The position numbers and the translations under genes are program-made. Shown one piece after another: positions 198 through 59,521 of a stretch of 64,000 nt of DNA (positions are counted from its first letter, which is position 1; every line of letters begins with the position of its first letter). The notes under the pieces were generated by a model. The model searched no databases. It was given only the letters and a program-made list of their open reading frames with translations, and was not told the DNA's origin. The stretch covers positions 1 to 64,000 of the forward strand of contig CAMYYY010000003.1 in the NCBI GenBank assembly GCA_947303715.1, read 5' to 3'. The stretch comes from an uncultured Bacteroidales bacterium. GTDB lineage: Bacteria; Bacteroidota; Bacteroidia; Bacteroidales; Bacteroidaceae.

Positions 198-317
198 TCC
201 CAGCCTGTGGGAATAAAATCCCAGCCTATGGGACTTTTTTCCCATTTGATGGGACAATTATTCCATTTGATGGAATTTTTATTCCAGCCTATGGAACTTT
301 TTTTCCATTTGATGGAA
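198..317. repeat. Array of six 15-nt palindromes at exact 21-bp pitch (family A, copy 1)
   Basis: Units start at 198, 219, 240, 261, 282, 303: TCCCAGCCTGTGGGA, TCCCAGCCTATGGGA, TCCCATTTGATGGGA, TTCCATTTGATGGAA, TTCCAGCCTATGGAA, TTCCATTTGATGGAA. Confidence 0.95.
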
Positions 318-1953: not shown

Positions 1954-2077
1954 TCGGCGAGGCCGAACTAAACCTTCCACGAAGTGGAAACTAAACCTCC
2001 AGCTTTGCTGGAACTAAACCTTTCGGCCTTGCCGAAAACTAAACTACCGGCGAAGCCGAATTAAAACGCTTCGTTTT
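1954..2077. repeat. Array of six short triloop hairpins with AACTAAACC spacers (family B, right)
   Basis: TCGGCgagGCCGA, TTCCACgaaGTGGAA, TCCAGCtttGCTGGA, TTTCGGCcttGCCGAAA, CGGCgaaGCCG, AAAACGcttCGTTTT; the last lies in the final codons of hypD. Confidence 0.95.
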
Positions 2078-4421
2078 CGGTACGGGCGATGATTTCGTTT
2101 TGGAGCTGGGTGGTCATGTCGTTGAAATAGTCGGAATAGCCCGCAACGCGTACGAGCAGATCCTTGTAATCGTCGGGGTGCTGTTGGGCATCGAGCAGGG
2201 TAGGGGTATCGACGATGTTGAACTGGATATGATGGCCTCCCATAGAAAAATAGCTGCGGATGAAGGCGGCGAGCTTGCATAGGTCTTCCTCACGGCGGAG
2301 CAACGAGGGGACGAAGCGGACGTTGAGTAGCGTGCCGCCGCTCATTGTCTGGTCGAGTTTGCCAAGCGATTTGATGACGGACGTCGGGCCGTGGGTGTCA
2401 GCACCATGCGAGGGGGAAGTGCCGTCGCTGATGGCAAAGCGTGCGCGGCGCCCGTTGGGCGTAGCGTTACAGACAGAGCCGAAGTAGTTATGGCAGGTGG
2501 TACTGAGCATGTTGAGGTGCGTCTTGCCGCCGCGGGTGTTGGGATGTCCATCAATAGCACGGACGAGGTCGTTGTAGATGCGCACGGCAAGGTCGTCGGC
2601 ATAATCATCGTCGTTGCCGAAGAAGGGGGTGTGGTTCATGATGTATTGGCGCATAACCTCCTGTCCCTCAAAGTCGGTGTCGATGGCTCGAAGGAGTTCG
2701 TCCATTGTATAGCGGTTCTCTTCGAAGACATGCTTGCGGAGGGTGGTAAAGCAGTCGGTTGTGGTGCCGAGGCCAGTACATTGGATGTATTGTGTGTTGT
2801 AGCGTGCGCCGCCGCTATAGTAGTCCATGCCTTTCTCGATGCAGTCGTCGATGAAGAGGCTGAGGAACGTGGCGGGGGCATAGAGGCTGAACATGCGCTC
2901 GATGTAGTTGTTGACGGCCAGCTTCATATTGACGAAATGAACCATCTGCTTGTGCCAAGCCTCATACAGTTCGTCGAAGTTTTTGAAATCTCTCGGGTCG
3001 CCGGTTTCCAATCCCAGTTTCTTTCCTGTGATGGGGTCGATGCCATTGTGTAGCGTTATCTCGAGGATTTTCGGGGTGTTCAGATAGCCTGTGAGCAGAT
3101 AGGCTTCCTTGCCGAAGGCGCCTACTTCGATACAACCCGAGCAACCGCCTTCGCGGGCATCCTCGAGGCTCTTCCCTTGGCGGACGAGTTCCTGTACATA
3201 GACATCAGGGTTGAAGACACTAGGGTAGCCATAACCTTTACGGATGACGCGGCAGCCGGCAATCAGGAAGCGGTCAGGAGTCTCGCGGCTGATGTGGATA
3301 GAGAGGCCGGGCTGTAGTTCATGCAATTCCTCCTGAATCTCCAGGATGATGTAGGAAAGCTCGTTTGTGGCGTCCTTGCCTTCGCGGTCGATACCGCCAA
3401 TGTTGATGTTGGTAAAGTCGTTGTAGGTGCCGCTCTCCAACGCCGTGATGCCAACCTTGGGTGGCGCGGGTTGGTTGTTGAATTTTATCCAGAGGCACGA
3501 GAGGAGTTCCTTGGCTTTGTCGCGGGTGAGGGAGCCGTCGGTAAGTCCTTGTTCGTAGAAAGGACGGAGGTGTTGGTCGATGTGTCCTGGGTTCATGGAA
3601 TCCCAGCCGTTGAGTTCGGTGACTGTGCCGAGGTGCACGAACCAATACATCTGTATGGCTTCCCACAGGTTGCGTGGGGCATGGGCGGGGACATTATGGC
3701 AGACTTCAGCAATCTGCAATAATTCGGCACGGCGTTGCGGATTTTGCTCGTCGGCAGCCATTTTCTCTGCCAGTTCTGCATGGCGCTCAGCCAAAAGGAT
3801 AGCGGCATCGCACGAGATGGCCATAGCCTCCAGCTCCTGTTGGCGGTCAGTGGCAATAGGATCGTTGATGTAGTCGAGCGAGGCAATCTTTTCCTCTATG
3901 CGGCGGCGCACGTCGAGCAGTCCCGTGTGGTACATCTTTCCATCCATGGCGGTATGCCCGGCGGCACGCTGTTCCATGAACTCCGTGAATACGCCAGCGT
4001 GATAGGCTTTTTCCCACTCCTTCGATACATGGCTGAAGATGCGTTCACGTTGTGTTCGTCCCTGCCAGTAGGGGATGACTTCGCGCTCATAGGTGTCAAT
4101 GTCCGTTTGGCTGATGTGGTAGGGCTGCAGCTCGCGGGTATCGAGTACGTGAAGGTCCTCTACGCTATGACACGTCAGTTCGGGAAAGGTGGGCACGGCC
4201 TTGGGCTTGGGGCCGCGTTCGCCAACGATAAGTTCATCATCGCCGATATAGATGGTCTTCTTTTTGCAGATTTCATAGAAGTTACGAGCGCGGAGGATGC
4301 AGTTGGGCATCTTGCCATAATTCTCCTTATAGAAAGCTGTTTCTATGAGGGCTCGCTCGATGGTAAGCGTAGCCGGAGTGTCGAGACTCTGCTGATGCAG
4401 GCGCTGGATGCGATCGTTCAT
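2061..4421 (-). CDS. hypD: Glycyl radical enzyme, likely trans-4-hydroxy-L-proline dehydratase
   Basis: 786 aa PFL-like; REGGCSGCIEVGAFGKEAYLLTGYLN active-site region and C-terminal VRVAGYSDYF glycyl-radical loop. Confidence 0.8.
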   Translation of the reverse strand: MNDRIQRLHQQSLDTPATLTIERALIETAFYKENYGKMPNCILRARNFYEICKKKTIYIGDDELIVGERGPKPKAVPTFPELTCHSVEDLHVLDTRELQPYHISQTDIDTYEREVIPYWQGRTQRERIFSHVSKEWEKAYHAGVFTEFMEQRAAGHTAMDGKMYHTGLLDVRRRIEEKIASLDYINDPIATDRQQELEAMAISCDAAILLAERHAELAEKMAADEQNPQRRAELLQIAEVCHNVPAHAPRNLWEAIQMYWFVHLGTVTELNGWDSMNPGHIDQHLRPFYEQGLTDGSLTRDKAKELLSCLWIKFNNQPAPPKVGITALESGTYNDFTNINIGGIDREGKDATNELSYIILEIQEELHELQPGLSIHISRETPDRFLIAGCRVIRKGYGYPSVFNPDVYVQELVRQGKSLEDAREGGCSGCIEVGAFGKEAYLLTGYLNTPKILEITLHNGIDPITGKKLGLETGDPRDFKNFDELYEAWHKQMVHFVNMKLAVNNYIERMFSLYAPATFLSLFIDDCIEKGMDYYSGGARYNTQYIQCTGLGTTTDCFTTLRKHVFEENRYTMDELLRAIDTDFEGQEVMRQYIMNHTPFFGNDDDYADDLAVRIYNDLVRAIDGHPNTRGGKTHLNMLSTTCHNYFGSVCNATPNGRRARFAISDGTSPSHGADTHGPTSVIKSLGKLDQTMSGGTLLNVRFVPSLLRREEDLCKLAAFIRSYFSMGGHHIQFNIVDTPTLLDAQQHPDDYKDLLVRVAGYSDYFNDMTTQLQNEIIARTENEAF

Positions 4422-4497
4422 AAGAATGAAAATGAAGAATGAAACTTTAATCTTTAACCTTTAACCCTTAATCTTTAACCTTTAATCTTTAACCCTT

Positions 4498-17128: not shown

Positions 17129-17519
17129 CTTGTGTCGCCTGCATTTTGTTACCCTATCTATAGCCGATATTTCTTCCGCTATATATAGAAAGGTGTGGAA
17201 AATGCCTTTTTTCCTTCATAATCTGTCATAATCCTTCACTCGTTTTCAGTTCATAATCAACAACTTTGACAGATTGAAGGATATGAAGGAGAAAATTAAA
17301 CTTTTTTTATTTTTCGGAAGTAAAAAAGGAAGTAAAAGTGAAAGTAATGCCAGCTGTGCTGGCAGGAAGTAAAAGTGGACGAATGCCCTGAAATGCCGAA
17401 AAGAATACTATCGTCCTGCGCGTAGCGCATAACTCCCTTTTTAACTTCCACTTTTACTTCCCTTTTTACTCCCATTTAAAAATTAGCGACTGCCCCAACA
17501 GCCCTTGCTTCCCCAAAGA

Positions 17520-17597
17520 TTCCATCAAATGGAAAAAAAGTTCCATAGGCTGGAATAAAAGTTCCATCAAATGGAATAAAAATTCCATCAGCTGGAA
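17520..17597. repeat. Array of four 15-nt palindromes at exact 21-bp pitch (family A, copy 2, inverted orientation)
   Basis: Units start at 17520, 17541, 17562, 17583: TTCCATCAAATGGAA, TTCCATAGGCTGGAA, TTCCATCAAATGGAA, TTCCATCAGCTGGAA. Confidence 0.95.
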
Positions 17598-29644: not shown

Positions 29645-30940
29645 TTATAGATGGAATGGGGCGATGACTTCGTCGAACTTGCGGCGGATGGCATCGGTGC
29701 AGAGGTTGCCAATGGAGCCTTCGTGGGTGTGGTTGACGGTGCGCGTGGGACGGTAGGTTCCATCCTGCACGGCATGGCCGACGGTTTTGTAGGCTTCACG
29801 GAAGGGGGTGCCAGAGAGGACGAGGCGGTTGACATCCTCGACCGTGAAGAGGTAGTCGTAGCGGGAATCGTCAAGAATATCGCGACGGACACGGATATGC
29901 TGCAGCATGAAATCGCAGATTTGCAGACAGCCGGAAATCTGGCCAAAGGCGGGGAAGAGAACATCCTTGAGGAGCTGGAAGTCGCGCTGGTAGCCGAGGG
30001 GGAGGTTGGTGGTCATAAGGGCAACCTCGTTAGGGAGGCTCTGCAGACGGTTGCACTTGGCGCGCATAATCTCAAAGACGTCGGGATTCTTCTTGTGAGG
30101 CATGATGCTGCTGCCCGTAGTGAGCTCGTCAGGGAAGGAGATAAAGGCGAAGTTCTGACACATAAAGAGACAGACATCCATGGCGAAACGCCCGAGGGTA
30201 GCTGCGATGGCGCTGAGAGCGGCAGCGATAGCGCGTTCGGTCTTTCCGCGGCTCATCTGGGCAGCAACGACGTTGTAGTGGAGCGTGGAGAACTCCAGCA
30301 GCTCAGTTGTCATCGTGCGGTTGAGAGGGAATGACGAGCCGTAGCCGGCGGCGCTACCCAGCGGGTTTTGGTCGGCTATGGCGTAGGCGGCAGCAAGCAG
30401 ACGCAGATCGTCAACGAGCGTCTCGGCGTAGGCACCAAACCAGAGGCCAAACGATGAGGGCATGGCCACCTGCAGATGGGTATAGCCTGGCATAAGGATG
30501 TCCTTGTACTGCTCGCTGAGGGCTTGCAAACGCTCGAAGAGGGTAGCTACATCACGGGCAGTCTCGCGCAGCTTATCGCGGAAAAAGAGCTTAAGGTCGA
30601 CTAATACCTGGTCGTTACGGCTACGGCCAGAGTGAATCTTCTTGCCGATGTCGCCCAAACGCTGAGTAAGCAGTTGTTCCACCTCGCTGTGGACGTCCTC
30701 GACGCCTTCCTCGATGGTAAAGCGTCCGGCATCAATATCATCGAGGATGTTCTGCAGCCCATTGAGCAGTAAGGGCAGTTCGTCTTTGCCGAGCAGTCCA
30801 ATGGATTCCAGCATTCGGATGTGGGCCATGGAGCCGAGCACGTCGTAGCGTGCCAGCTGCAAGTCCAAATCACGGTCGTTACCTACAGTAAAGTTCTCTA
30901 TCAGTTTGTCAGGCTCGTAGCCTTTGTCCCAAAGCTTCAT
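29645..30940 (-). CDS. argH: Argininosuccinate lyase
   Basis: IHSGRSRNDQVLVDLKLF, GSSIMPHKKNPDVFEIMRAK. Confidence 0.95.
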   Translation of the reverse strand: MKLWDKGYEPDKLIENFTVGNDRDLDLQLARYDVLGSMAHIRMLESIGLLGKDELPLLLNGLQNILDDIDAGRFTIEEGVEDVHSEVEQLLTQRLGDIGKKIHSGRSRNDQVLVDLKLFFRDKLRETARDVATLFERLQALSEQYKDILMPGYTHLQVAMPSSFGLWFGAYAETLVDDLRLLAAAYAIADQNPLGSAAGYGSSFPLNRTMTTELLEFSTLHYNVVAAQMSRGKTERAIAAALSAIAATLGRFAMDVCLFMCQNFAFISFPDELTTGSSIMPHKKNPDVFEIMRAKCNRLQSLPNEVALMTTNLPLGYQRDFQLLKDVLFPAFGQISGCLQICDFMLQHIRVRRDILDDSRYDYLFTVEDVNRLVLSGTPFREAYKTVGHAVQDGTYRPTRTVNHTHEGSIGNLCTDAIRRKFDEVIAPFHL

Positions 30941-31264
30941 TAAAATTAAGAATTAAGAATTAAAAATTTTGTCTGCGACGCTACACGAATAATCGCGAAT
31001 TAATCATTAATAATATATTTGTGAATAATTCGTGTCCAATCGTGGCTATTCGTGTTACACCGTAGGTAATAGAAAACATTTCTATCAGTTTGTCAGGCTC
31101 GTAGCCTTTGTCCCAAAGCTTCATTAAGAATTAAGAATTAAAAATTAAAAATTTAGTCTGCGACGCTACACGAATAATCGCGAATTAACCATTAATAATA
31201 TATTTGTGAATAATTCATGTCCATTTGTGGCTATTCGTGTTACACCGTAGGTAATAGAAAATGT
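30897..31264. repeat. Direct tandem duplication (~184 bp x 2) spanning the argH start codon and leader
   Basis: TCTATCAGTTTGTCAGGCTCGTAGCCTTTGTCCCAAAGCTTCATTAA... at 30897 and again at 31081, nearly identical through GTTACACCGTAGGTAATAGAAAA. Confidence 0.95.
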
Positions 31265-44673: not shown

Positions 44674-44757
44674 TTTTCATCGCAGTGAAAACAATCTTTC
44701 ATTGCAGTGAAAACATTTAACCATCGCAATGAAAACATTTAATCATTGCGATGAAAG
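44674..44757. repeat. Four tandem short hairpins at 22-bp pitch (family C)
   Basis: TTTTCAtcgcagTGAAAA, TTTCAttgcagTGAAA, CATcgcaATG, TCATtgcgATGA; centres ~44682, 44704, 44726, 44748. Confidence 0.85.
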
Positions 44758-59312: not shown

Positions 59313-59475
59313 ATTTTTCAGAGGCGATCCCTATCTAAAACGGGGCGAAGCTCCGTTAAAGATAGCGCAAGGCGAGCTGAGCAAGCCCCCCTATTTTATT
59401 CCCCTGCTCTATCCATTTATTCCCCTATTCTAAATTTTTATTCGCCTATTCTATTTTTTTATTTGCCTACTCTAT

Positions 59476-59521
59476 TTATAAACAGCGCCCCTGTTTATAT
59501 AAACACGGGCGCTGTTTATAA
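59476..59521. repeat. 46-nt near-perfect nested palindrome
   Basis: TTATAAACAGCGCCC-c-TGTTTATATAAACA-c-GGGCGCTGTTTATAA; only one mismatched pair. Confidence 0.95.

Follow-up and report, generated by a model that had tools for sequence, protein, structure and literature searches.

Phased palindromes in the window

The six 15-nt palindromes at positions 198–317 of the window (the whole 64 000-nt stretch of DNA that was analysed) represent a single copy of an intergenic family scattered through each carrier genome in about ten or more copies; although they lie beside the hydroxyproline operon, they are not one of its features. We consider it slightly better than an even chance (probability roughly 0.55) that this dispersed element is an array of dyads bound cooperatively by a protein on the same face of the helix. 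Dispersed repeats in the Bacteroidales are mostly unannotated, and invariant arms held in strict phase provide ready-made bait with which to find a new protein of DNA organisation or regulation. The array and the features discussed with it are as follows:

175–197, + strand: left flank (..CAACATCAAACGCTGAAAAA), conserved; an outer unit, degenerate yet in phase, that the dispersed copies share (flank comparison across copies)
198–254, + strand: units 1–3, starting at 198, 219 and 240, with arms TCCCA/TGGGA (TCCCA-N5-TGGGA subfamily)
261–317, + strand: units 4–6, starting at 261, 282 and 303, with arms TTCCA/TGGAA (TTCCA-N5-TGGAA subfamily)
318–350, + strand: right flank (TTTTTGGGGAATTTGATTCTATCCGGGCAG), likewise conserved; an outer unit, degenerate yet in phase (flank comparison across copies)
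361–425, + strand: 12-nt tandem repeat (GGAAGTAAAAAT)n with a GCGC-TTT-GCGC hairpin, a separate repeat adjoining the array
17520–17597, − strand: second array of four TTCCA-N5-TGGAA units exactly 21 bp apart, in opposite orientation to the first

Each unit of the first array consists of 15 nt and a 6-nt linker, with perfect complementarity of the 5-bp arms in all six and, as the preliminary description had stated, no slippage from the first start to the last. The centres GCCTA and TTTGA, which had been described as alternating, are both present but do not alternate strictly, the order being GCCTG, GCCTA, TTTGA, TTTGA, GCCTA, TTTGA. In the right flank, TTTGAT recurs 21 bp beyond the TTTGAT of the last unit. 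Phased palindrome runs of at least four units (periods 15 to 40) were absent from 60 simulated windows of the same dinucleotide make-up, while the real window contains runs of six and four, and TTCCAN5TGGAA was observed eight times against 0.08 expected. The sequence CCA-N5-TGG, which is kept in both subfamilies, is also the PflMI recognition sequence, possibly by coincidence.

A dispersed family with invariant arms

The genome of the window (G000; 91 contigs totalling 3.03 Mb, with 88% completeness) was read as sampled stretches, and a collection of 39 arrays (149 units) was assembled from it, from the congeners G008, G011 and G016, and from G031, which belongs to another genus. Spacing is exactly 21 bp in 39/39 arrays, i.e. 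two helical turns in every copy examined, and a search for irregular spacing in other genomic copies returned none. Adjacent TTCCA pairs number 20 in G000, 33 in G008 and 30 in G016, with none in the remaining 16 of the 19 genomes of the genus that were examined, while TCCCA pairs are found in these same three genomes and also in G011, there without TTCCA. That only 4 of the 19 genomes carry either form counts against the same-face binding reading. Several arrays stop at contig ends, as is typical of repeats, and the array flanks contain further degenerate in-phase units.

The arms are TTCCA/TGGAA in 122 units and TCCCA/TGGGA in 24, the other three having one arm mismatch, so that 742 of 745 arm base pairs across the 39 arrays are Watson–Crick, and no unit among the 149 shows the T/C change in a single arm only. 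The compensated stem change described previously is thus real and perfect, yet it amounts to a single pair (T-A or C-G, positions 2/14), and the TCCCA units mostly form contiguous blocks of three, with a few in pairs; this implies few independent events and makes the change weak evidence for a stem. The centre is freer, with 29 distinct cores tolerated among the 149 units and the core pair 6/10 being Watson–Crick in just 48% of them. The 6-nt linkers are nearly all A/T (GC 0.00–0.02 at the four inner positions). Such almost purely A/T linkers, phased at 21 bp, could in principle curve the DNA intrinsically as helically phased A-tracts, with no specific protein involved. We regard this as very improbable, as it leaves the near-invariant arms unexplained and as neither the arrays of G031 nor the Verrucomicrobiota dyads described below have A-tract linkers.

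Genomic context

The first array lies 120 bp beyond the stop of the HypD activase gene (437–1342, − strand), the product of which scores below the cut-off of NF043069 and above that of the subfamily TIGR02494; HypD itself (2061–4421) scores above the NF043068 cut-off. The proximity to the hydroxyproline operon, given earlier as a downstream position, is real, but the operon merely neighbours this one copy, most others lying by unrelated genes. No common Pfam family was found among 31 proteins flanking arrays, and no regulon of related neighbour genes was seen. A different 21-bp array (AGAATCAGCTTCT units) stands beside the activase gene in G008 and G011, and a 22-bp array (CGAAACGTTTCG) in G017; we do not claim replacement at one site of this locus, since the remaining intergenic region differs from that of G000.

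Arrays are oriented at random with respect to both the left gene (11 same strand, 15 opposite) and the right gene (12 same, 14 opposite), and the genes on either side of the intergenic arrays are co-directional (13), divergent (6) or convergent (5). This randomness, including the copies between divergent genes, argues against an RNA or single-stranded DNA element, by which we mean either a string of transcript hairpins (serving 3′ stability or termination, or REP/BIME-like) or the substrate of a transposase that recognises hairpins. Such an element would account for the perfect arms and the compensated T-A/C-G pair, for an array folding energy (MFE) with z of about −6, for terminator-like matches at 198–233, and for the copies that lie 2–30 nt from a stop codon, same-direction gene pairs included. 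We nevertheless consider it unlikely: individual hairpins have little stability (−2.9 to −6.0 kcal/mol), the best whole-array RNA fold pairs across units instead of forming a hairpin string, the Rfam covariance models gave no match above gathering score, the helical phase is exact and no RAYT/Y1 transposase gene was found in three carriers. Specifically, Y1_Tnp (RAYT) genes were absent from G000, G008 and G016 (each 88–89% complete), which disfavours a RAYT/REP system, and one match was detected in G011. The arrays resemble REP/BIME in being dispersed, clustered intergenic palindromes, and differ from them in this lack of the transposase gene, in their strict helical phase and in their 5-bp arms.

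Two further repeats were observed near the arrays. The (GGAAGTAAAAAT)n repeat with its GCGC hairpin is multi-copy in the genome, being found beside both TTCCA arrays of the window (the second time at 17413–17480, adjoining the array at 17520) and alone elsewhere. Hairpins with unrelated stems and a constant GGTTTA / ACTAAACC linker occupy 1360–1550 and 1925–2060, flanking a gene (1526–1900) for a TIGR02436 four-helix-bundle protein that also weakly matches Avd, a retroelement protein; similar hairpin blocks occur in G017.

Evolution of the arrays at orthologous loci

For the majority of arrays, two or three species carry an array at the orthologous position, and array contents have been exchanged in place: at the 17520 locus, G000, G016 and G008 carry three different arrays within similar flanks. 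Unit number also differs between orthologues (6 versus 7, 4 versus 6 and 2 versus 4). Between orthologous arrays of equal size, differences were found at 0/550 arm positions, 7/275 core positions and 6/234 linker positions, compared with 70/1280 in the near and 239/3724 in the far flanks (5.5–6.4%); the contrast between arms and core plus linker (13/509) gives a Fisher P of 7e-5, from pairs that are not fully independent. Arm conservation could partly be a product of gene conversion, and on the same-face binding reading the arrays were spread and homogenised by recombination.

The main rival to same-face binding holds that the family is a BrickBuilt-like MITE or minisatellite, i.e. a non-autonomous dispersed repeat whose inner units are amplified and homogenised by recombination, without cellular function. 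The precedent is BrickBuilt of Porphyromonas gingivalis, in which 23-nt tandem repeats lie inside an intergenic MITE present in 19 copies (PMC4596501). The arrays share with it the multi-copy and always intergenic nature, an inner tandem array of helical-scale unit, conserved flanks and the same bacterial order. Near-identical four-unit arrays at many loci, conserved flanks around varying unit numbers and an array-less allele all agree with such an origin; in the last case, one G016 locus contains an array and a second 21-bp array that are both missing in G011 (218 versus 54 nt between aligned blocks). However, conservation is stricter in the arms than in cores and linkers, and three species share the orthologous position of many copies, giving little sign of recent movement. 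The 21-bp units form a strict dyad, unlike the 23-nt repeats of BrickBuilt, and BrickBuilt has IS-like terminal inverted repeats, whereas terminal repeats with target duplications are not established for the arrays. On this evidence we hold a functionless mobile repeat to be possible but on balance doubtful.

Helical phasing in Verrucomicrobiota

When one genome per species was scanned for pairs of TTCCAN5TGGAA dyads separated by 0–20 nt, at least 120 stretches matched, mostly from Verrucomicrobiota plus a few rumen Bacteroidales. Among the matches listed, dyad spacings cluster at 21–22 and 30–33 with none at 24–28, they follow a 10.5-bp turn (R = 0.91, mean phase 0.02 bp), and two- and three-turn gaps are mixed in 16 of 142 arrays. 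The linkers of these mostly verrucomicrobial arrays are unrelated to one another and are not A-tracts. Quantised spacings joined by unrelated linkers indicate that spacing is set there by phase and not by linker descent. A DNA-binding array and a string of hairpins had both been offered as explanations in the preliminary description; the quantisation at two and three turns favours the former and renders the latter less likely.

The dyad centre is G/C in 97–99% of Verrucomicrobiota sites while Bacteroidales cores vary, and because of this difference in composition we do not claim homology between the two sets of dyads; the proteins presumed to bind them need not be homologous. No report of the motif sequences, or of such arrays in Verrucomicrobiota, was found in the literature searched. 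Carriage by phages was considered too, but the 36 viral stretches, which show scattered spacings alongside phased ones, speak neither for nor against it.

A proposed same-face protein array and a candidate binder

Invariant arms, free cores, random strand and two- or three-turn quantisation together fit dimers arranged on one face of a duplex. We propose that the element, taken as 15-bp dyads TYCCA-N5-TGGRA that A/T-rich 6-bp linkers keep at a spacing of exactly 21 bp, acts most likely as double-stranded DNA, each dyad being bound by a putative homodimeric sequence-specific protein. Successive dimers would lie on one helix face and bind cooperatively, probably with bending or wrapping of the DNA at the linkers. 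The outcome would be a local nucleoprotein patch, perhaps an insulator, a nucleoid anchor or a broad regulator, independent of orientation and of specific neighbour genes. On this view whole 21-bp units are gained and lost and contents swapped by recombination between copies, while selection would maintain the arms and the phase.

Known phased systems offer partial parallels. Plasmid iterons and partition centromeres are two-turn phased repeats that are bound cooperatively. They occupy one replicon locus, whereas the arrays are scattered over the chromosome in many copies beside unrelated genes and not at a single locus beside rep or par genes. NrdR boxes have another motif, occur only in pairs and lie at ribonucleotide reductase promoters. 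Like the dyads they are short palindromes, and binding of the NrdR repressor is governed by the helical phase of the two boxes (PMC12051234).

Among candidate binders, Lrp-family dimers recognise imperfect inverted repeats of 13–17 bp whose centres are separated by two or three turns (PMC2995911). The arrays are akin to Lrp/AsnC operator arrays in their inverted repeats of this size range, two- or three-turn spacing and serial sites on one face (PMC2995911), a geometry seen in the 15-bp dyads at 21 bp and in the 21–22 and 30–33 spacings of Verrucomicrobiota. Lrp sites, however, are AT-rich at the centre and mostly degenerate, whereas the dyads have near-perfect arms and cores that are not AT-rich (Bacteroidales core GC 0.41–0.60 versus 0.46 in the flank), the A/T-rich part being the linker; unlike Lrp/AsnC operators, the arrays are also dispersed whatever the neighbouring gene. 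AsnC/Lrp genes are present at one to two per genome in 19/19 genomes of the genus, carriers and non-carriers. The recognition helix of paralogue B is identical in carriers and non-carriers, and the form of paralogue A found in the four carriers is nearly the same in G017, which is without arrays. Since the sites lack an AT-rich centre and these genes do not clearly track the arrays, membership of the Lrp family is not claimed, and Lrp/AsnC stays a candidate binder to which distribution and recognition helix lend no support.

Other arrays with a period of 21–22 bp

Tandem Repeats Finder (TRF; intergenic, non-nested repeats of period 15–40) assigned a period of 21 or 22 bp to 16/25 intergenic repeats in 462 kb of G000, to 26/33 across 684 kb of DNA from the family's other genera and to 1/8 across 314 kb from other families within the same order, and found no intergenic repeat of period 15–40 in a 50-kb stretch of Escherichia coli. 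The family value has a probability of about 3e-23 under a uniform spread, which is a crude null. The excess in the own genome and in other genera makes a link between repeat growth and helical phase directly testable. The sequences of these repeats differ from genome to genome, and palindromicity was significant in 6 of 51 intergenic 21–22 bp arrays by a weak test, so their common trait is the period and not the dyad. A tentative extension, which we think rather less probable than not, is that intergenic tandem repeats across the family are kept at two turns whatever their sequence, with lineage-specific half-sites, the TTCCA array being one case. If true, this would point to a nucleoprotein system, as yet undescribed and evolving fast, that reads helical phase and serves as a nucleoid organiser or an array-making element.

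TTCCA arrays also form mosaics with other array families, abutting different 21-bp arrays in L182 (9815–9950; CTACTCTGTCATTTCAACGCA) and L031 (1513 onward; AGAGCAGGCCTCT). At 59394–59520 of the window, two 21-bp tandem arrays other than TTCCA, TTTTATTCCCCTACTCTATTT and TATAAACACCGCCCCTGTTTA, lie side by side. Another palindrome, TTTCATYGCRATGAAA, forms an array phased at 22 bp at 44677–44756 of the window and at 3070–3149 of L195, and further phased palindrome arrays consist of CAACGCGTTG (L246, L188 and L194) and GTCACCGCGGTGAC (L233). Intergenic 7-bp tandem repeats are numerous in the window (e.g. at 4445, 20913, 46120 and 57763) and may have a helical period as well, three units making 21 bp. 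The window also contains a 185-bp tandem duplication at 30897–31261, with two copies that are 96% alike.
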